NCBI GenBank assembly: GCA_944326515.1
Contig: CALVEI010000019.1
Location: 1-32,410, forward strand
DNA: 32,410 nt
Direction: 5' to 3'
Origin: Candidatus Gastranaerophilales bacterium
Lineage (GTDB): Bacteria > Cyanobacteriota > Vampirovibrionia > Gastranaerophilales > Gastranaerophilaceae
Made by a program: the position numbers and the translations under genes. Positions 17,640 through 27,372 of the stretch are shown here, piece after piece. How positions within the stretch are numbered: position 1 is the stretch's first letter; each line of letters begins with the position of its first letter. Under the pieces are notes generated by a model. That model had not been told where the DNA came from, did not search any database, and worked only from the letters and a program-made list of their open reading frames with translations.

Positions 17640-20249
17640 ATGAATTTTCATAAGATTTTATTTGTTATTTGTTTTTTTATCTTAACTAATACAAATGTGT
17701 ATGCTAACGAAATAAATATAGCCAATTTTGGACAGTTGATTGACGCAAATGTTCAAAGTGGTGATACTTTAAGCTTTACTAACGATTTAGTCTCTGATGA
17801 AACAATAGGCAATCATTTTGAGGGGTTGAATATAACTATTAATGGAAATAGTCACTATTTGAACGGAGGAAATTCCTTCGGTGGCTTCGTTGTTAGTCAG
17901 AACAGTGATTTTAATAATGTTGCAATAGTTCAATGTAAAGGACAAGCCTATCAATCATCTGTATATGCTGGTGCTATTTTTAATAACGGCAGTCATACTG
18001 TTATAAATAATGCTGCTTTTAGTCAAAATTTTGTAGATGCTGCAAGCTATTATTTTGGTGTAGCTGGTGCAGTTTATAACATAAATGGCGGGACAATAGA
18101 TATAAATAATTCTTTGTTTTTAAATAATAGTACAAATGCTGCATCTTCTTTTGGTGGGGCAATTGCCAATGGCTATCACGACAGCCCGTATGTCGCAAGA
18201 ATGAATATAAATAATACAGTATTTAACGGAAACCATTCTGAGGGTTCTGTAGTTCCTTATGGTGGAGCTATTTATAACCGTGGAGAAATAAATATAAACA
18301 GTTCTCTTTTTGAAAATAATTATGCTCAAGGTGGGGATAATATTTTTGTCTATGGCGGAAGTTTGTATAATATCGGGACAATGTCAATTGAAAACACAAC
18401 GTTTAAAGGTAATTACGGACAAGCTGAGAATAATTCTGTAATTCTTGGCGGGGCAATATACAACAATGCTAAATTGTCTATTAATAATTCTGTTTTTCAA
18501 GGTAATTTTGCAAAATCTAATTATTATGCTGACGGTGCTGCAATATATAATGATATTGACGGCAATGCAACTATTTCAAACTCTTTATTTGATGATAATT
18601 CTGTTAAATCATCTGCTCAATTTGGAGAATGTGGCGCTGTTTATAATAGCGGAAAGATAACTGTTATTGATTCTACTTTTAAAAATAATACTGACAAGAA
18701 CGGGGATTTGAATGATATTTACAATACGTCCACTGGTGTTGTAGAGTTCACAGGTTCAGGAACAACAAATATTCTAAGCGGCATAAATGGTAGTGGCCTT
18801 GTTGAAAAAAACGGATCAGGTATTTTAAATCTTGGTGGTGAGAACAACAAATATACTGGAGATTTTGATTTTAATGAAGGAACTGTCCATTTATTGGCTA
18901 ATAGCAGTTATTTTAGGGCTGTGAATTCTAATTTTGCAAATAATGTAAATTTTAATATGCAAAATGGTCAAATAGATAATGTTGATTTTGGAAATTTGAA
19001 TTTAAACGGAACTACAAATGTTTTTGCTGATGTAAATTTTAATACCAAAACAATGGATACAATTGCGGCTAAATCACTTGGCGGTGGTGGCTTTTTGCAA
19101 GTAAAAAATTTGGCGTTGGAAGGGGTTCCTGATGGAGATTTTATTTCAATACCATTTGCAGATACAGTTTTAAAAGATTCTGTAAAGTACACATCTACAA
19201 CTTTGCATACACCTATTTATGATTATCTGACGACTTATGATTCGACTGACGGTAATTTTGATTTTACACGTTTAGGGTTTAATTCTGCAATTCTTGTTTC
19301 ACCAGTGGCTGCTCAATTAGCTGGGTATTTAACCCAAATTGATACGTTTAGAAATGTTTTTGCAAATTTAGATATGGTTATGATTATGCCCCCTGATGTA
19401 AAAGCAAAATATTCCTTGCTTAATAAGAGTGCTTTTAGTGATGAAAGACTTGTCTATGCTCCGCTATTAATGCCTGAAAATAAAAAAGGCATTTGGTTTA
19501 AACCGTATTCTTCTTTTGAAAATGTGTCTTTAAAAAATGGTCCCAGAGTCTCTAACGTAAGTTATGGCAGTTTAGTCGGAGTAGAAAGTGAATTAAAAAA
19601 AGTTCGTAACGGTTGGTATTCTTTATATGGTGCTTATTTATCTTATAACGGATCGCATCAGGCATATCAGGGTAACAGTATTTATAATAATGGTGGTATG
19701 GTTGGGTTAGATGCAGTATTCTATAAAGGTAAATTCTTTTCTGCTTGGACTGCTAATGTTGGGGCTAATAGTTCTGAAGCTGGTACTAATGAGGGAATAG
19801 ATAATTTTGCGATGCTAAATACAGGCATTGCGCAAATGAGTGGTTTTAATTTTGAAACTTTTCGAAGAAAGATAATTATACAACCAAGTGTGCTGACTTC
19901 GTACTCTTTTATCAATACATTTAACTATAAAACAGCGTCAGGCGTTAATATTAATACAACACCTTTACAAGCTTTGCAGGTTGAACCTAGGGTTAAGTTA
20001 ATAGGCAATTTTAAGAACTATTTGCAGCCTTATTTAGCTGTTTCTATGGTATGGAATATCATTGACCATGCAAAGTTTCAGGCAAATGATGTTTATTTAC
20101 CTAATTTGGCAATAAAACCGTTTGTTCAATACGGAGCAGGTGTACAAAAACGTTTTGGTGAAAGGATAACAGGATTTTTTGAGACTATGTTAAGGAACGG
20201 AGGAAGAAACGGCATTGTTCTTCAATTTGGTTTGCGATTTAGCATCTAG
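17640..20249 (+). CDS. Autotransporter with chlamydial-Pmp-like GGAI/FxxN repeat passenger
   Basis: The 869-residue protein has a signal peptide (1-23, ending VYA). Residues 110-350 hold eight repeats pairing a GGAI-like motif (GAIFN, GAVYN, GGAIAN, GGAIYN, GGSLYN, GGAIYN, GAAIYN, GAVYN) with an FxxN motif (FSQN, FLNN, FNGN, FENN, FKGN, FQGN, FDDN, FKNN). This is the pattern of chlamydial polymorphic membrane proteins and predicts a parallel beta-helix. A PATR-like beta-strand segment follows (383-418, NGSGILNLGGENNKYTG). The last 260 residues form an autotransporter beta-barrel (GIWFKPYSSFENV onward) ending in LQFGLRFSI. The passenger would be displayed on the outer surface, perhaps as an adhesin. 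No Shine-Dalgarno is visible; a TAAAAT lies 6 nt before the ATG, but it lacks a good -35. Confidence 0.9.
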   Translation: MNFHKILFVICFFILTNTNVYANEINIANFGQLIDANVQSGDTLSFTNDLVSDETIGNHFEGLNITINGNSHYLNGGNSFGGFVVSQNSDFNNVAIVQCKGQAYQSSVYAGAIFNNGSHTVINNAAFSQNFVDAASYYFGVAGAVYNINGGTIDINNSLFLNNSTNAASSFGGAIANGYHDSPYVARMNINNTVFNGNHSEGSVVPYGGAIYNRGEININSSLFENNYAQGGDNIFVYGGSLYNIGTMSIENTTFKGNYGQAENNSVILGGAIYNNAKLSINNSVFQGNFAKSNYYADGAAIYNDIDGNATISNSLFDDNSVKSSAQFGECGAVYNSGKITVIDSTFKNNTDKNGDLNDIYNTSTGVVEFTGSGTTNILSGINGSGLVEKNGSGILNLGGENNKYTGDFDFNEGTVHLLANSSYFRAVNSNFANNVNFNMQNGQIDNVDFGNLNLNGTTNVFADVNFNTKTMDTIAAKSLGGGGFLQVKNLALEGVPDGDFISIPFADTVLKDSVKYTSTTLHTPIYDYLTTYDSTDGNFDFTRLGFNSAILVSPVAAQLAGYLTQIDTFRNVFANLDMVMIMPPDVKAKYSLLNKSAFSDERLVYAPLLMPENKKGIWFKPYSSFENVSLKNGPRVSNVSYGSLVGVESELKKVRNGWYSLYGAYLSYNGSHQAYQGNSIYNNGGMVGLDAVFYKGKFFSAWTANVGANSSEAGTNEGIDNFAMLNTGIAQMSGFNFETFRRKIIIQPSVLTSYSFINTFNYKTASGVNINTTPLQALQVEPRVKLIGNFKNYLQPYLAVSMVWNIIDHAKFQANDVYLPNLAIKPFVQYGAGVQKRFGERITGFFETMLRNGGRNGIVLQFGLRFSI

Positions 20250-20326: not shown

Positions 20327-20361
20327 ATAAATAGAGAAAGTTGTTCATTAAAGGGGCGAGT

Positions 20362-20748
20362 GTGTTAGTAAATGTTTTTACAAATTCTTTTTCTACTCCG
20401 TTAAGAGAAAGACAAAAGCAAAAAGAAGATTTGATTCAAAAGAATTACAATCATATCTATGCGCACGAGCTTGCTCATAAAATGGCGGGCGGATCTTTCG
20501 CAGGTGCTATCAGTATTGAAAAAAATTCTGAAGGGATTCCTGTTTCAGGACACGTTCCTATAAAAATGCCTGTTTTAGACAAGCTAAATCCTCAAAAAAC
20601 TATCGAACACGCTAATACTGTTATAAGAGCTGCATTGGCTCCAGCGGACCCTTCTGCTCAAGATTACAAGGTTGCTGCTGAAGCTTCTTCTATAAAATCT
20701 AAAGCTGAAAATCTAAAGCAAGGCAGTAAATTAAACGTCATTGCATAG
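20362..20748 (+). CDS. SprA-related putative metalloprotease, short form
   Basis: The product (128 residues from GTG) carries YAHELAHKMAGGSFAGAISI, with the HExxH zinc motif HELAH at 35-39. The rest of the signature of the SprA-related family (PF12118) is also present: a G(H/E)V block and then IRAALAPADPSAQDYKVAAEA near the C-terminus. AAAGGGG sits 5-6 nt before the GTG at 20362. A TTG at 20341 would add seven residues but lacks a ribosome binding site. Family members are often longer, with extra N-terminal sequence; this one is almost only the core. There is no signal peptide. Proteolytic activity has been assumed for the family from HExxH, not read from this sequence. Confidence 0.82.
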   Translation: MLVNVFTNSFSTPLRERQKQKEDLIQKNYNHIYAHELAHKMAGGSFAGAISIEKNSEGIPVSGHVPIKMPVLDKLNPQKTIEHANTVIRAALAPADPSAQDYKVAAEASSIKSKAENLKQGSKLNVIA

Positions 20749-20783
20749 CGTATTTTTTTGTTAAATTCACTTAATGCAGTTTG

Positions 20784-20813
20784 TTGAGTAAATATTCCGT
20801 TTTATAGTATAAT
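20784..20813 (+). promoter_or_regulatory. Promoter of the envelope cluster
   Basis: TTGAGT (20784-20789), 18 nt, TATAAT (20808-20813). Transcription should start near 20820, which rules out the TTG at 20816 as the start of the next gene and favours the TTG at 20843. Confidence 0.65.
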
Positions 20814-20842
20814 CTTTGTGTGATGTTAGTGGAGTATTCGTC

Positions 20843-21016
20843 TTGTTCACTTCTGTTAATGTTGGTTATGCAAAGATTTTTATGTTTTTGGTTATAACAT
20901 TGGTTTTTTTTAGCTGTTGTTTTTTATATGTTGTAAAACCAAAAATGCACAAGCCGTTTCAGCTTAACATTATTGAATATATGATGGTTTTTAATGCGGA
21001 CAAGACTAAAGATTAG
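20843..21016 (+). CDS. Small single-pass membrane protein with PKMH motif
   Basis: The 57-residue protein begins at a TTG with GGAG 8 nt upstream. One transmembrane helix (about 11-32, IFMFLVITLVFFSCCFLYVV) is followed by KPKMHKPFQL and a short polar tail. The TM-then-PKMH layout recurs in the TonB-like protein at 24368 (FNPKMHGRTF). It lies 17 nt before the glycine-zipper protein gene and is probably the first gene of that operon. Function is unknown. The predicted promoter and ribosome binding site support it as a real gene. Confidence 0.6.
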   Translation: MFTSVNVGYAKIFMFLVITLVFFSCCFLYVVKPKMHKPFQLNIIEYMMVFNADKTKD

Positions 21017-21033
21017 AGCAAAGGGCTATTTTA

Positions 21034-22071
21034 ATGAAAAAGTTTTTATCGTTAATAATTTGTATAATTTATTTTTTATCGACAAATGCTTGCTTTGCTT
21101 TTGAGGAATTGTATTATTTGAAAAATGCAGATAAAAATGCAATATCCTCTCAAGTAGAAAATATCTTAACAGAGGAAAATTTTGAAATAGCAAAGAAAAA
21201 TCCAATACAGGCAATTTCCAAAAAAAATAAAGACAACTTTGCTTATATAGTTTTTCAGCAAAGTGGTCAAAACCTTTTTTATTATTACGAATCCAATGAT
21301 AAAAATAAAAAACTGAATAAGACTATTTTAAAATCTTTTAAAAAAAATAATATAGAATATGAACAATCAAAAGATTCTATGCTTTTGGCTAATTTTGGTG
21401 ATATTGTTTATCGCTCTATTACCGGTCAAAAAAAGGTTTACAATTTTGAAGAACCAAAACAACAGCCGGCTGTTAATAAGGTTGCAGAAAAACCTCAAAG
21501 CCCTACAACGTTAAAAGGCTTTGTTGGAAAAATCGGCAGAGGGGAAAAGCTTGATGTTTATCTGCAAAACTCTATAAACACTGCTACAGCACAGAAGGGC
21601 GATATTGTAACAGCAGTTTTAAAGCAAGATTGGATGTATAAAGATTTTGTTGTTGCTCCACAAGGAAGTCTTTTATATGGGACTTTATCAAAAGCTAATC
21701 CTGCAAAGATGGGCTCTCGTAATGGTTCTGTTGAGTTTCAATTTAATAAAATAGTTACCCCACAAGGCAAAACTCTTTTACTCTCTACGGAAAAAATAGC
21801 TTTTAATGTTACAAATGACGGAAAGTTTAAAAGCGTTATAATAAACACTGTTGGAATGGCAGCGGTAGGTGCTGTAATTGGTTTACTTTTTGCTGTTGCT
21901 TTCGGGGATTCTTCAAATATTGCACAGGGTGCTATAATAGGAGCAAGCGTTGGTGGCGGTACAGGGCTTGTATCTTCTACGGTCGCCAAAGGTGTTGATG
22001 CTGAGATTCCTGCCTTTACTGATGTGGAAGCAGTTTTAGACAAACCCGTTAACGTTATATTAAATTACTAA
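21034..22071 (+). CDS. Exported protein with glycine-zipper segment, VirB10/TrbI-like C-terminus (weak)
   Basis: The 345-residue protein has a signal peptide (1-22, ending CFA). Residues 23-125 are a mixed, Lys-rich domain. A Pro/Gln linker follows, then from about 165 a beta-rich domain (VYLQNSINTATAQKGDIV, VVAPQGSLLYGTLSKA, IVTPQGKTLLLST). A glycine-zipper-like hydrophobic stretch (about 268-315, GMAAVGAVIGLLFAV then GAIIGASVGGGTGLV) precedes the end DVEAVLDKPVNVIL. The pattern of a beta-domain, hydrophobic hairpin and a final VLDxPVxV strand recalls the outer-membrane domain of VirB10/TrbI proteins, but I cannot confirm homology. AAAGGG serves as ribosome binding site. It is the first large gene of the cluster. 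Confidence 0.7.
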   Translation: MKKFLSLIICIIYFLSTNACFAFEELYYLKNADKNAISSQVENILTEENFEIAKKNPIQAISKKNKDNFAYIVFQQSGQNLFYYYESNDKNKKLNKTILKSFKKNNIEYEQSKDSMLLANFGDIVYRSITGQKKVYNFEEPKQQPAVNKVAEKPQSPTTLKGFVGKIGRGEKLDVYLQNSINTATAQKGDIVTAVLKQDWMYKDFVVAPQGSLLYGTLSKANPAKMGSRNGSVEFQFNKIVTPQGKTLLLSTEKIAFNVTNDGKFKSVIINTVGMAAVGAVIGLLFAVAFGDSSNIAQGAIIGASVGGGTGLVSSTVAKGVDAEIPAFTDVEAVLDKPVNVILNY

Positions 22072-22080
22072 AGGAAATGA

Positions 22081-22749
22081 ATGAATAAAAGATTAATAAT
22101 ATCAGGAATATTGATACTTGCTTGTTCGATTGTTTTAAAACTTTTATTTGTCGCATTTAAAAATATAGAAATTGACGATTTTCATCCTGCTTCAGTTATT
22201 TTTGTTGTGGATTCTTCTGCTTCTAATCAAGCTAAATTGGCTCAGGAGATTGAATATCTTAAATCAATATGCAATATCTTGGATCCTGAGGATAGTATAA
22301 AAATTTTAAAGGTTTCAGAGTCTTCGTATTTGATATATGAGGGTGTTCCAACAGATAATTCCTCTATTAATAAAACTCTTGCTGAGTTTACAAAATACGA
22401 CAGTTCAGAGTACGGTACCGCATACGGGGAGGCAATAAAAAAAGCTTTTGAACACGCATTGAATATGAAAAAAGAGGGATATGTGCCTTCTATAGTTGTT
22501 ATCGGTGATTTGGAAAACGAAGGTGATGCGGCAAAACAGATTGATTGGGAAACACTGCCGACAAATGTTGAAAATATAAAAAAATATATCCCTGAAATTT
22601 CGATGATGTTTGTATATGCGCATCCTGAAAAATTGGATTTTGTTAAAACAAAGTTGACACCTGTGCTTGGTGAAAAAAAGTTGATAATTGCAAATGAGCA
22701 GACTGTTGCAAAATCTCAAAGAAAATTGTTAGAAGCTATTGGAAGATAG
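22081..22749 (+). CDS. Membrane-anchored VWA-like protein
   Basis: The 222-residue protein has an N-terminal transmembrane anchor (5-27) and then a von Willebrand A-like fold. ASVIFVVDSSASNQ carries the MIDAS motif DSSAS (44-48), SSEYGTAYGEAI supplies a possible MIDAS threonine, and SIVVIGDLENEGD a possible later aspartate. The domain should face the periplasm and bind a divalent metal and a protein partner. It starts 9 nt after the glycine-zipper gene and ends 9 nt before the polytopic protein gene, so it is in one operon with both. Confidence 0.78.
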   Translation: MNKRLIISGILILACSIVLKLLFVAFKNIEIDDFHPASVIFVVDSSASNQAKLAQEIEYLKSICNILDPEDSIKILKVSESSYLIYEGVPTDNSSINKTLAEFTKYDSSEYGTAYGEAIKKAFEHALNMKKEGYVPSIVVIGDLENEGDAAKQIDWETLPTNVENIKKYIPEISMMFVYAHPEKLDFVKTKLTPVLGEKKLIIANEQTVAKSQRKLLEAIGR

Positions 22750-22758
22750 GAGTTTTTT

Positions 22759-24357
22759 ATGTCATTTAGCATAATTACCAAAAATGGAGAAAAAACTTTT
22801 GAGGATAAAAAGATTATAAATATATCATCAAAAGAAGGTTTTGATGTTCAATTGGATTTGGGTTTTGATTATATGCTAAGTGTTCAGTATGATGAAGAAT
22901 TCCAAAAGTGTAAGATATTAAACCAATTTGGGGGCGACAAATTTCTTTTTAAAGGTCAACCTTTGCCACAAACTCTAGAGGTTGAAAAGATGTGCAAAAT
23001 TATGTTGAAAGATTCTGATGAATTTATATCAGTCAGAGTTAATGCCGAAAAAAAACCTTCAAAAGTTGTTTTGGAAAATATTTCAGAGCAGGACATAAAA
23101 AATCTTTATGGGACACAGGTTAATGCTGCAGCAAAGTTAATGATAGAAAAAAGAAAATCAGAAATTGAAGAAGCCAGAGTTGCAATAATAAAGCAAATTT
23201 CTTATTCAATAAACGATTTAAAACACAAAATCTCTATGAACTCTAAGGCTGGTATCGTTTTGCATATAGGGCTTTTTCTTGCTTCTATGATACTTGCATT
23301 TGGGGTATCTAATTATCTTACAGGATTACCTTTAAAAGAATCAGGCTCTATTATACAACTGCCTGTGAATATAAAGCTTTTGTTTGTTTATTCTTTGATA
23401 GTTTATGGTATTGGGATTGTATTAAAACAGGGAATGTATCTGTTTTTGCAAAACAAACTGGGTAACAGCTCTGCTGATTCTAACATTGCTGAAAAATTGT
23501 TTATTACAATATCTTCTTTATTTTATGCCGGGGGTTACTTTATAAACGTTCTTTACTATTTTGCTCCCGGTACAATGCCATTTTTTGCGGTGTTTATGTC
23601 TTTTTTCTTTACTTCTGCTTGTGTTATTTTGGCACTTGCTTGTGGGTATTTTAAAAGTAATAACGTTTCTCTTTCTAAAGAGCTTAGCCAATATGAGTAT
23701 AGAGAAGATTTTGAACAAGTTATAAAAGAATATCAGTTGTGGATAGAAAGATACATAAATAATTTGACAAAAGGAAAAATATCGCAAATAAAAGATAAGT
23801 TATTCAATTTGCAGATAAAATCAGTTGGAGAAACTATCTTGGGTATTTTGACTGCTCCATTTTTGGCTTATGGGGTTTCAAATACTCTTGCAATGTGCTT
23901 CCCTGACGCAGCCGGCTGGATAAGGATTTCAGGTTTAAGATTTAGTCCCGTTTTTCTTGTTTTGGCTTCATTTATGATTGTTTTTGCGTTTTTTGCTTTC
24001 GTCAATGCTTTTTGGACTAATAAAAAGATTCAAGCTTCTAATGTTTTAAAGAATGATGGCTTTAGCAACTATCTTCAACACGGGGTTGAAATATACGGGC
24101 TTCAAGGTGTTAAAAAACTTGATGTTGATATGCGTCGTTCTTTTATTATTGGTTTGTGTATTATATTTATTGAATTTTCGATGAATATATCTTATTTTAT
24201 GCAAGAAATAGGCGGTGATTTAAACGGTATTTTATTAAGTTCCGTTGCCGCTCTTGTGCCTACTGCTCTTTTGATTGCAGAAACTTATATGTTAAGCCAG
24301 ACTAAGTTTGAAATATTTGCCTGTGACGGTTTGTTATCAAAATTTGATAGAGAGTAG
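22759..24357 (+). CDS. Eight-TM membrane protein with soluble N-terminal domain
   Basis: I do not recognise this 532-residue protein. Residues 1-95 form a beta-rich soluble domain. The pattern IINISSKEGFDVQLDLG then FLFKGQPLPQ and KIMLKDSDEFISVRV loosely recalls an FHA fold but lacks clear FHA signature residues. Residues 105-160 look helical and charged. Eight hydrophobic segments follow at about 165-187, 204-228, 246-268, 273-297, 357-378, 396-419, 461-480 and 488-512, with a charged loop at 300-355. AGGAG precedes the ATG. Sitting between VWA and TonB-like genes, it may be the membrane base of an envelope complex; that is inference. Confidence 0.72.
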   Translation: MSFSIITKNGEKTFEDKKIINISSKEGFDVQLDLGFDYMLSVQYDEEFQKCKILNQFGGDKFLFKGQPLPQTLEVEKMCKIMLKDSDEFISVRVNAEKKPSKVVLENISEQDIKNLYGTQVNAAAKLMIEKRKSEIEEARVAIIKQISYSINDLKHKISMNSKAGIVLHIGLFLASMILAFGVSNYLTGLPLKESGSIIQLPVNIKLLFVYSLIVYGIGIVLKQGMYLFLQNKLGNSSADSNIAEKLFITISSLFYAGGYFINVLYYFAPGTMPFFAVFMSFFFTSACVILALACGYFKSNNVSLSKELSQYEYREDFEQVIKEYQLWIERYINNLTKGKISQIKDKLFNLQIKSVGETILGILTAPFLAYGVSNTLAMCFPDAAGWIRISGLRFSPVFLVLASFMIVFAFFAFVNAFWTNKKIQASNVLKNDGFSNYLQHGVEIYGLQGVKKLDVDMRRSFIIGLCIIFIEFSMNISYFMQEIGGDLNGILLSSVAALVPTALLIAETYMLSQTKFEIFACDGLLSKFDRE

Positions 24358-24367
24358 GTAGGTTGTT

Positions 24368-25108
24368 TTGTACAGATTATTTTTCACAATTGTTGCTGTT
24401 ATATTGGCTTTAGCTACTTTGGGTGTTTGTGTTTTTAACCCTAAAATGCACGGACGAACATTTGTGTATGATTCAAACTATCAAGTATCAGTGTCTGATG
24501 TAAAAACCGTTGATACAAAAAATATTCCTGTAAAACTCAATAATACAAAATCAACTAAACAAGTCAAAAAGCAGGATATGAAGTTGGTTGACACAAATAA
24601 TTTTAAAACTGCCGATGTCTCTATAAAACAAGTACCAATAAAAGCTGTTGATAAAGGAGTTAACCTAACAAATACTAAGGTAAAAACAGTTACTCAAAAC
24701 GTACAAAAAACTCAGCCTAAAGTTGTTCAACAACAAAAACAGGTACAAGAGCAAGAAGCAGAAGTTGTTTTATGGAACAAATGGCGTTCTAATTTGCAAA
24801 ACCAAATAATGAAGGATGTTAAATTGCCTGATGTCCCGTATGGTACAATTTTTAGGTTTGCTTTTGAAGTAGATAAGTACGGTAAGGTGACAAACTTACA
24901 AACTTGGTCAGATCAGCCACAGTATACGCCTTATGCCATACAGTATATTGCCCCTGTAATAAAAAGTTATCAGGGACGAGATATTTTAGTGTTCCCAAAC
25001 GGCTCAAACAGAATAACAACAAATGTTTCCGGGGCGTGGAAAATTGCTGACTCTACAAAATACAGTAGCCCTGAAGATTATAAAGATATAGAAAAAATAA
25101 GGAATTAA
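24368..25108 (+). CDS. TonB-like C-terminal domain protein, single TM
   Basis: The 246-residue protein starts at TTG (24368), since no ATG occurs before residue 27 and AGGTAGG lies just upstream. A transmembrane anchor (4-24) is followed by FNPKMHGRTF, then a long Lys/Thr/Gln/Val-rich linker (about 40-135) of periplasm-spanning type. The C-terminal domain (138-232, WRSNLQNQIMKDV, FRFAFEVDKYGKVTNLQTWS) resembles TonB C-termini. TonB proteins carry energy from the inner to the outer membrane. Whether this one does is open: no ExbB/ExbD pair is visible nearby, although the eight-TM protein is adjacent. Confidence 0.72.
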   Translation: MYRLFFTIVAVILALATLGVCVFNPKMHGRTFVYDSNYQVSVSDVKTVDTKNIPVKLNNTKSTKQVKKQDMKLVDTNNFKTADVSIKQVPIKAVDKGVNLTNTKVKTVTQNVQKTQPKVVQQQKQVQEQEAEVVLWNKWRSNLQNQIMKDVKLPDVPYGTIFRFAFEVDKYGKVTNLQTWSDQPQYTPYAIQYIAPVIKSYQGRDILVFPNGSNRITTNVSGAWKIADSTKYSSPEDYKDIEKIRN

Positions 25109-25110
25109 AT

Positions 25111-26049
25111 ATGTACAGATGTACGGATTGTTCTCAAGTGTATAAAGAAAAACCAGAGTATTGTGATTGCGGAAATAATGTTTTTGAAGAAATTCCAGAT
25201 ATTGAGGAGTTAAGCAATTTTCAGTTTGATTTTGAACAGAATTTAAACTATCAAGATGAAGATAAATTTGAACCTGATAGCGAAAAAGTAATTGCTAACA
25301 AAAACAATGATTTACCTTCTGTGCTTATATTTGTTTTCTGCATTATACTTTCAATATGCTTTTTTATTTTTATTGGAAAAGATGATAAACAGGATAATAA
25401 ATCTAACGTCGATAATAAAAATCAACAAGTATCAGTTAGTAAAAAAACTGTAGATATTCCGCAAATAGACGAAATATGGAAGGAAAATCCTAATAAAACG
25501 ACTTCTGAAAAAGAACTTTCACGTAATGATGTTAATGTTAGTGAAAATACTTCTGAAAAATCTCCTGTTACACAAAATGTGACAGGAGTACAAAAGCAAG
25601 ATAACAAACCTAAGACGGTAATAGCTAAAAATAATCCGTCTAATAATACAATCAATACAAATGTCTCAAATAAGCCTGTTGTAAAAAAACAAACTGTAAA
25701 TAAAATTGCCAGTACTGTAACAAAGCCAAAGACTATAGATTATGCAGCGGCAAAAAAAGAGCTTTTAAATTACAAAATTGCGTTAAGAAATAAAATGGCT
25801 GCTAATGTTAATTTTGCTTCAATTGTTGGAGATGGAAACTGTGTTGTTACATTCAAAATAGACAATAGCGGCAAACTGATTGATCGTAAATTTACCAAGT
25901 TATCTCAAAACGACAGTGTAAACGATGCTGTTTATGCTGCAGTAATGCAGACACCCGCATACAACCCTCCGCCTGTTGCTTATAAAGGTGAAACGTTGTC
26001 TTTTTCTTTTAAAATGTATGGCGGTAATTTTGAGATTGATTTACGTTAA
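25111..26049 (+). CDS. Zinc-ribbon, single-TM, TonB-like C-terminal protein
   Basis: The 312-residue protein opens with a zinc ribbon (C4, C7, C18, C20) on the cytoplasmic side, then an acidic stretch, one TM helix (69-88), a long Asn/Lys/Thr-rich linker (90-210) and a TonB-family-like domain (about 215-305: KIALRNKMAANVNF, CVVTFKIDNSGKLIDRKFTK, AVMQTPAYNPPP). A zinc ribbon on a TonB-like protein is unusual and could sense or recruit a cytoplasmic partner. It starts 2 nt after the other TonB-like gene. Its stop overlaps the stop of the convergent VWA gene by 4 nt. Confidence 0.75.
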   Translation: MYRCTDCSQVYKEKPEYCDCGNNVFEEIPDIEELSNFQFDFEQNLNYQDEDKFEPDSEKVIANKNNDLPSVLIFVFCIILSICFFIFIGKDDKQDNKSNVDNKNQQVSVSKKTVDIPQIDEIWKENPNKTTSEKELSRNDVNVSENTSEKSPVTQNVTGVQKQDNKPKTVIAKNNPSNNTINTNVSNKPVVKKQTVNKIASTVTKPKTIDYAAAKKELLNYKIALRNKMAANVNFASIVGDGNCVVTFKIDNSGKLIDRKFTKLSQNDSVNDAVYAAVMQTPAYNPPPVAYKGETLSFSFKMYGGNFEIDLR

Positions 26050-26957
26050 TCGTTTATGAACTCGTATTTTTGCGATTTATCATCTGTAGAACTTTGGGGC
26101 GCTGCTTGTTGGGTTACAGATTCAATTAGGTTTGAGCTAAAATCCATCGGTGTTTGAGGGGTGTAGAATTTTCCACCTGTAACGTTTGCAAGACACTTCA
26201 ATTCTGTAGAGTAAGAAGAGACAAGAACAACATCTACGATGATATCTTTTCTTTCAGAGGCTAGTTTTGCTACGTATGCACAAGGGTCGCCTCCACAATT
26301 TTCTCCACCGTCAGTTATTAAAATTATTTTTTTAGGATATGTTGTTGAAAGACCGGAAAAATCAAATTCAACAGCTTGTTTTAAAGCAAGTGTTAATGGG
26401 GTCGATCCTCCTATATTAACGGAGTTCATTCCGCTTAAAACTTTTAGTGCGTTATTTTGTTTAACAGGAATTATTTGTGATGTCGCTGAACATCCTCCTG
26501 AAACATTTCCAAGATAAGAGTCTTGAGATGCTGTTACTTTATATTTTCCGCTTTTTGTTTGTGCTATTTCTTTTACTTTTGCAAGGACTGGGGTGTATGG
26601 GTTGTTTCCTGAATTATGACCAAAAACCCTAAACCCTATAGCTGTAGTTGTAGGAAGTTGAGAAACAATCATAGACATTGTTTTTTTAGCTTCGTTTATC
26701 CAGTAGTACATACTCCCCGAATAATCCATTACTATGTCGATTGTTCCAATAGGTGTTTTGGTTACTTGTTGTGAATTAACATAATTTTTTGCACTATAGT
26801 TATTATAAAAATTTGTTGGGTTATTTAACACACTGCTGTTTTGGCTTTTTCCGTTAGGGGCTGTGACTTTTCCACTTGTGTTTATTTTGTATTTTGCAGC
26901 AAAAGCTGATAGAGAAAAACAACTTGTTAAAAGCAGTATGATTAAAAGTTTTTTCAT
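26046..26957 (-). CDS. Secreted VWA-domain protein
   Basis: The 303-residue protein has a signal peptide (1-20, ending AFA in MKKLLIILLLTSCFSLSAFA). The VWA domain runs from about residue 70, with IDIVMDYSGSM carrying the MIDAS DYSGS (78-82), GGSTPLTLAL with the MIDAS Thr, and ILITDGGENCGGDPC with the later Asp. Several cysteines may form disulfides. It should bind Mg/Ca and a ligand outside the cytoplasm. I use the ATG at 26957, with GGGTGA overlapping the end of the yjbQ-like gene. A GTG three codons earlier is possible. It converges on the TonB-like operon, so the two VWA proteins may belong to one system. Confidence 0.85.
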   Translation of the reverse strand: MKKLLIILLLTSCFSLSAFAAKYKINTSGKVTAPNGKSQNSSVLNNPTNFYNNYSAKNYVNSQQVTKTPIGTIDIVMDYSGSMYYWINEAKKTMSMIVSQLPTTTAIGFRVFGHNSGNNPYTPVLAKVKEIAQTKSGKYKVTASQDSYLGNVSGGCSATSQIIPVKQNNALKVLSGMNSVNIGGSTPLTLALKQAVEFDFSGLSTTYPKKIILITDGGENCGGDPCAYVAKLASERKDIIVDVVLVSSYSTELKCLANVTGGKFYTPQTPMDFSSNLIESVTQQAAPQSSTDDKSQKYEFIND

Positions 26958-26958
26958 T

Positions 26959-27372
26959 CTATTCACCCATTACTTTAACTATAACACGTTTTCTTCTTTG
27001 TCCGTCAAATTCTGCATAGTATATCTGTTGCCAAGGGCCAAAATCAAGACGACCGTTTGTTATAGGTACTATAACTTCGTGTCCGATAACAAGACTTTTT
27101 AAGTGGCTGTCACCGTTTGTTTCACCTGTTCTATGGTGGTTGTAGTTTATATCAAAAGGCGCAATTTCTTCTAGCCATTTGTCTATATCTGCAATAAGCC
27201 CGTTTTCTGCATCATTGACATAGATACCTGCTGTAATATGCATTGCAGATACAAGAACCATACCTTCTTTAATACCACTTTTTTGAACAATTTCTTCTAC
27301 TTCATCGGTTATGTTTATGTATTCTCTGTGGTTTTGTGTGTTGAACCATAAGTATTCAGTTGCAAATTTCAT
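26959..27372 (-). CDS. yjbQ: YjbQ/UPF0047 family protein
   Basis: The 137-residue protein matches the YjbQ family in full length. It has the conserved [18 protein letters not shown], a [18 protein letters not shown] block and the C-terminal [24 protein letters not shown]. The E. coli member has reported weak thiamine phosphate synthase activity; the real substrate is not settled. AAGGAG lies 8 nt before the ATG. It is between lysR (12 nt upstream) and the VWA gene (1 nt downstream), probably one transcript. Confidence 0.93.

Follow-up and report, generated by a model that had tools for sequence, protein, structure and literature searches.

Which machinery drives or holds a TonB-like protein in an operon that carries no ExbB/ExbD gene? 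The question is raised by a stretch of 32,410 nucleotides (nt; the window) from Candidatus Gastranaerophilales bacterium, which is contig CALVEI010000019.1 (C19) of a draft genome of 2.2 Mb (GCA_944326515.1). Here, genes packed on the forward strand encode a small single-transmembrane (TM) protein (sTM), an exported glycine-zipper protein (GZ), a membrane-anchored VWA protein (VWA), an eight-TM protein (8TM) and two TonB-like proteins (TonA and TonB), and a convergent gene encodes a secreted VWA protein (secVWA). We propose that these seven genes specify a single Ton/Tol-type complex across the envelope, specific to Gastranaerophilaceae and independent of ExbB/ExbD, a statement to which, taken as a whole, we give slightly less than an even chance. 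Its parts differ in strength. The genes almost certainly form one functional unit, and this unit is probably a trans-envelope complex of the Ton/Tol type, while its energisation through 8TM is a tentative proposal, with the balance tilting somewhat against it. Our literature search returned no paper on the operon or on TonB in Gastranaerophilales.

Conservation and Distribution of the Operon

According to the open reading frame (ORF) list, the gaps between sTM, GZ, VWA, 8TM, TonA and TonB are 17, 9, 9, 10, and 2 nt, and the stops of TonB and secVWA share 4 nt (TTAA). The dense packing and the convergent stop overlap described in an earlier note on this DNA were therefore borne out. The gene order was maintained across 112 distinct loci, with median gaps of 12 nt (GZ-VWA), 12 nt (VWA-8TM), 3 nt (8TM-TonA), and 4 nt (TonA-TonB). 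Neighbours within four genes were counted at the 99 loci away from a contig edge, and included VWA at 90, TonA at 94, TonB at 82, GZ at 81, sTM at 49, and secVWA at 48. Since the order is kept and the same neighbours recur, the arrangement is not a product of chance.

Co-occurrence was evaluated in 97 genomes of the window's own family, Gastranaerophilaceae. VWA and full-length 8TM were both present in 64 genomes and both absent from 33, without exception, and TonA was found in 61 of the former and none of the latter (Fisher p 8e-23, in genomes that are phylogenetically non-independent). Three of the 33 genomes without the system held a free FHA-like domain only. The genes are thus syntenic and co-occur almost perfectly, rather than being scattered in relatives, as the earlier note had allowed. 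For 8TM itself, 348 relatives are known, of which 80 were retrieved, and a nearly identical 8TM gene (99%) comes from a Candidatus Gastranaerophilales MAG. Its profile gave 102 matches in 292 genomes of the phylum and 82 matches in 194 genomes of the class, all in the window's family, and no relative outside the family was found in either sample.

The core of the system is VWA-8TM-TonA/TonB, to which sTM, GZ, and secVWA are additions. Linkage of secVWA was seen at GZ-carrying loci only (48 with GZ, 0 without). Contig C4 of the same genome (L034) carries the core a second time in reduced form (VWA-8TM-TonA), behind an unrelated protein of 271 aa.

The TonB-Like Proteins and the Docking Motif

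TonB (25111..26049, + strand) consists of a four-cysteine zinc-knuckle-like module, a TM segment, a linker, and a TonB_2 C-terminal domain (CTD; PF13103, 1.9e-7), which in Pfam scored above cut-off, as did both VWA proteins. The cysteines C4, C7, C18, and C20 (CxxC...CxC; 25120-25173), at the predicted cytoplasmic end, were invariant in 26 sequences, and the CTD aligned with that of the canonical TonB of the same genome (hhalign, 94.8%).

Pfam gave a credible family for neither TonA nor 8TM, and when the PDB was searched by sequence for 8TM, GZ, and TonA, neither single sequences nor profiles gave a useful match. The profile comparison of TonA (24368..25108, + strand) with TonB reached a probability of just 19%, and structure prediction was therefore used for TonA. 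Behind a TM segment, a PxMHK motif, and a disordered linker, AlphaFold placed a helix-beta-beta-alpha-beta CTD at residues 118-225 with a pLDDT of about 97. The 14 best PDB matches of TonA in Foldseek were all TonB, TolA, HasB, or FusB domains. The TonB-like domains were accordingly not an unrelated fold, the outcome that the earlier note had named as a risk: one belongs to TonB_2 and the other models as a TonB/TolA domain.

The PxMHK module at the TM boundary is common to the TonA N-terminus and sTM (20816..21016, + strand; 66 aa in the ORF list, start codon uncertain), and reads PKMHK in sTM and its homologues. Moreover, positions 2-60 of the TonA profile retrieved the small sTM proteins of relatives with an E-value of about 1e-5. 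Judged from the sequence, sTM amounts to a TonA anchor that lacks the CTD.

TonB docks on ExbB, and TolA on TolQ, through a Ser-x3-His (SHLS) motif (PMC12215075). This motif was present at the TM segment in 17 of 19 canonical TonBs of the lineage, compared with 0 of 26 operon TonBs and 1 of 32 TonAs, and the single TonA match was the boundary motif SPKMH, which we attribute to chance. Because TonB-type CTDs are present and Ser-x3-His is missing, the operon keeps the TonB-type end without the ExbB-type docking. The ORF list and Pfam showed no ExbB/ExbD gene in the operon, and the absence claimed in the earlier note held for the window; it did not extend to the genome, where contig C16 carries ExbB and two ExbD genes.

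These genes could in principle drive TonA and TonB in trans, with 8TM and VWA as accessory proteins. ExbB was found in 40 of 40 genomes examined, the CTD of the operon TonB is homologous to the canonical one, and tonB often lies apart from exbBD in other bacteria (PMC12204202). However, the docking motif that most canonical TonBs possess is lacking in the operon proteins, and VWA and 8TM co-occur perfectly, with TonA occurring only where both are found. We consider this arrangement quite unlikely.

The Membrane Protein 8TM and Its Proposed VWA Partner

The AlphaFold model of 8TM (22759..24357, + strand), built on 37 sequences with a mean pLDDT of 84.5, showed an all-beta domain at residues 1-96 (22759..23046, + strand) followed by long helices, which we read as eight TM segments, each half containing a beta hairpin. 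ExbB, by comparison, has three TM segments. No consistent Pfam match was obtained across the 37 members, and Foldseek against PDB returned no convincing solved match for the membrane part. Comparison of 8TM with ExbB and MotA in hhalign was negative, as was the ExbB-MotA positive control under the same settings. The two hairpins hinted at an internal duplication of the membrane domain, a candidate that we rejected since the sequence was unsupportive (hhalign, 0.2%).

The beta domain matched FHA domains in Foldseek with a probability of 1.00 (Rv1747 FHA-1, TM-score 0.78 by target length). Its consensus has IGS, LLTVQ, and NNDK where the phosphothreonine-binding residues GR, SxxH, and N are expected, at positions that we take to correspond to the general FHA signature. 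Canonical phosphothreonine signalling was therefore rejected for this degenerate domain. Pairings of VWA and FHA proteins are known in other systems. The membrane VWA beside an FHA-fold protein resembles them, and would suit a VWA-type chaperone or maturation complex, of Bat or MoxR-associated type, in which signalling runs through FHA. Such a complex is highly improbable here, as the FHA domain lacks the phosphothreonine-binding residues, the operon showed no AAA+ ATPase of MoxR type, and TonB/TolA domains are no part of such systems. A free 99-aa homologue of the FHA-like domain occurs in three loci of one genus (L065, L066, and L067), in the neighbourhood of genes for a MarR regulator, an EmrA-like protein, MFS efflux, and an outer-membrane efflux-like protein.

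In the membrane part, Glu472 was invariant in 37 of 37 sequences and lies at a hydropathy peak. Asn476, Thr502, and Thr509 were likewise invariant, and the invariant residues were concentrated in the second half of the protein. These residues bear on whether the operon encodes merely a passive tether or scaffold, that is, a non-energised link between the inner membrane, the wall, and the outer envelope, in which the TonB-like domains are static binders and VWA is adhesive. Energisation is at present our inference, VWA and glycine-zipper proteins are frequently structural, the operon lacks an ExbB/ExbD gene, and the genome search found no TonB-dependent receptor, all of which would suit a tether. 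A tether, however, would need neither the invariant, buried Glu472 and the conserved polar residues of TM7-TM8 nor a base of eight helices accompanied by FHA and zinc-knuckle modules on the cytoplasmic side. We therefore regard the tether as unlikely, although it deserves to be taken seriously.

VWA (22081..22749, + strand; PF13519, above cut-off) has an N-terminal TM anchor and a VWA domain that is predicted to be periplasmic. Its MIDAS (DxSxS...T...D) is complete, with D44, S46, S48, T113, and D143, and 29 of 31 relatives have all five residues. TM-anchored vWA proteins (TMH-vWA) encoded beside tolQ-like genes were described as putative force transducers by Williams-Jones et al. (2025; PMC12204202). 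They replace TonB or ExbD and pair with a TolQ-like protein via the SHLS motif or a TM aspartate. The operon VWA is similar in being TM-anchored, predicted to be periplasmic, and encoded in a putative force-transducing operon. It differs in that the operon has no tolQ-like gene and possesses true TonB-like domains besides VWA. Furthermore, S-x3-H was found near the TM segment in 1 of 31 VWAs and histidine in the TM core of none, and no aspartate was seen in the VWA TM segments inspected.

GZ and secVWA as Candidate Outer Partners

GZ (21034..22071, + strand) is predicted to be exported, and combines an N-terminal lineage domain, a TrbI/VirB10-like beta domain, and a glycine zipper. PF03743 (TrbI/VirB10) was matched by 11 of 22 family members below the threshold (best 2.3e-6), and glycine-zipper families of Pfam also matched GZ at sub-threshold level. 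A relative of GZ is located at the canonical Ton locus on contig C16, where the order is BamA-GZ-TonB-ExbB-ExbD-ExbD (L184, 2288-7917). The two GZ proteins aligned in hhalign at 99.7%, with 30% identity over 184 columns, and a GZ gene was directly upstream of TonB-ExbB-ExbD-ExbD in 19 of 19 family genomes. Two different TonB-like operons of the lineage thus carry GZ. The genome has three further TonB_2 genes (contigs C42, C29, and C9), and none of them had GZ, VWA, or 8TM as a neighbour.

The likeness to an inner-to-outer-membrane energy or assembly system, proposed earlier, is strengthened by this position of GZ. The absence of a TonB receptor was borne out by a search of the genome, in which no Plug domain was matched; the same search was positive in Escherichia coli, Caulobacter, and Bacteroides. 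The canonical Ton locus thus sits in a genome where the Plug-domain search found no TonB-dependent receptor.

secVWA (26046..26966, - strand; PF00092, 1.1e-7) is a Sec-exported VWA protein with a Q/P-rich linker and a C-terminal tail. The tail is conserved, and the linker preceding it is variable in sequence. In the window, the tail motif is YEFI (residues 301-304; 26055..26066, - strand). A strict YEF[I/V] tail was found in 51 of 57 distinct secVWA homologues, whereas among 1808 other proteins encoded at these loci it occurred in 5. Of the six homologues that departed from the pattern, four had close variants of it; the remaining two, which were clear exceptions, were the unlinked copy on contig C2 and a protein of one divergent locus. 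From its sequence, the tail looks like a docking peptide, and our hypothesis is that it binds a TonB-like domain. In locus L053 (3672-7439), four tandem secVWA genes lie upstream of an operon version that lacks VWA.

The TrbI/VirB10-like domain of GZ and the convergent secVWA gene might also be read as parts of a secretion or assembly apparatus, in which GZ is a VirB10-like outer channel component and an 8TM/VWA translocon exports secVWA or the neighbouring autotransporter, whose gene adjoins the operon in three genomes. GZ indeed shares a TrbI-like beta domain with VirB10/TrbI; it differs in being short, exported by a signal peptide, and equipped with a glycine zipper. The operon has no VirB4-type ATPase, VirB7, VirB9, or other type IV secretion component, with the search for VirB genes confined to the operon. 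In addition, secVWA bears its own Sec signal, and GZ occurs in several copies in every genome of the class and also borders TonB-ExbBD. Such an apparatus is very unlikely.

Neighbouring Genes

The earlier note had begun the system at 20362, at an ORF related to SprA (PF12118, HExxH; 20341/20362-20748). We rejected this ORF as an operon member. It is unconserved at other loci, and because its cluster had no other member in the 40 loci compared, it is placed outside the system. The ORF (20341-20748) has an intact HELAH zinc-protease-like motif, and the family profile is covered only in part. The autotransporter-like protein (PATR repeat; 17640-20249 in the window, and in L047 and L063) adjoins the operon in differing orientations. 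At the most divergent loci (L058 and L062), the VWA-8TM-TonB core is directly 3' of genes reading like TrkA-TrkH potassium transport.

Proposed Model and Implications

In the trans-envelope complex that we propose, 8TM would be the inner-membrane base, and VWA would lie on its periplasmic face as a clamp that depends on a metal ion (MIDAS). The TM segments of TonA and TonB would fasten these proteins to the base, and for TonA, as for sTM with its anchor alone, the attachment would be made via PxMHK. The disordered linkers of TonA and TonB would span the periplasm, so placing their TonB/TolA-like CTDs to grip GZ and secVWA as outer partners, with the YEF[I/V] tail of secVWA perhaps contributing an extra strand to a TonB-like domain. 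The base would probably transmit force or a gated contact, and the buried Glu472 with the conserved polar residues of TM7-TM8 is a candidate ion-coupling site. As 8TM, whose membrane domain has no recognised family, and VWA stand in place of the ExbB/ExbD motor, the complex may transmit work or contact in a different way. That 8TM and VWA form an inner-membrane motor unrelated to MotA/ExbB/TolQ, which evolved to drive TonB/TolA-type transducers, is the boldest form of this proposal and rather unlikely.

The complex shares TonB-type CTDs, TM-anchored proteins, and disordered linkers with the Ton system, and the Ton locus of the lineage also has a GZ homologue. Unlike the Ton system, it comes without ExbB/ExbD, S-x3-H, or a TonB-dependent receptor detected in the genome search, and has 8TM and VWA instead, together with two transducers, one of them with a zinc-knuckle-like module. 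The TonA CTD also matches TolA domain III, and the role may be to stabilise the envelope rather than to take up nutrients, as in Tol-Pal. TolQ/TolR, TolB, and Pal genes are, however, lacking from the operon, and Tol-Pal has been reported only from Gracilicutes (PMC12204202).

Several observations weigh against this proposal. The AlphaFold models cover one chain each and rest on shallow alignments of 37 and 32 rows, and single Foldseek E-values for TonA were weak (0.035-0.5). VWA was not nearby in 9 of the 99 loci and TonA in 5, and divergent loci carry just VWA-8TM-TonB. The system is missing from about a third of the family and is therefore accessory. GZ is multi-copy throughout the class (194 of 194 genomes), so its presence beside TonB is suggestive and not exclusive. 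Finally, we infer, and do not observe, the topology, complex formation, tail-domain binding, energisation, and outer-membrane or cell-wall function.

In the current view, the TonB/TolA transducers known to date are powered by ExbBD or TolQR, and the Ser-His motif provides their docking. A conserved operon with a TonB-type domain, without this docking motif, and with a membrane base of its own offers a handle on the question of whether alternative motors or couplings exist, and the analysis singles out a small set of residues and motifs for testing. GZ and the YEF[I/V]-tailed secVWA are candidate outer partners in the envelope of these non-photosynthetic gut cyanobacteria. If 8TM and VWA were indeed a motor, they would show that power for the outer membrane can be drawn from the inner membrane in a second way.

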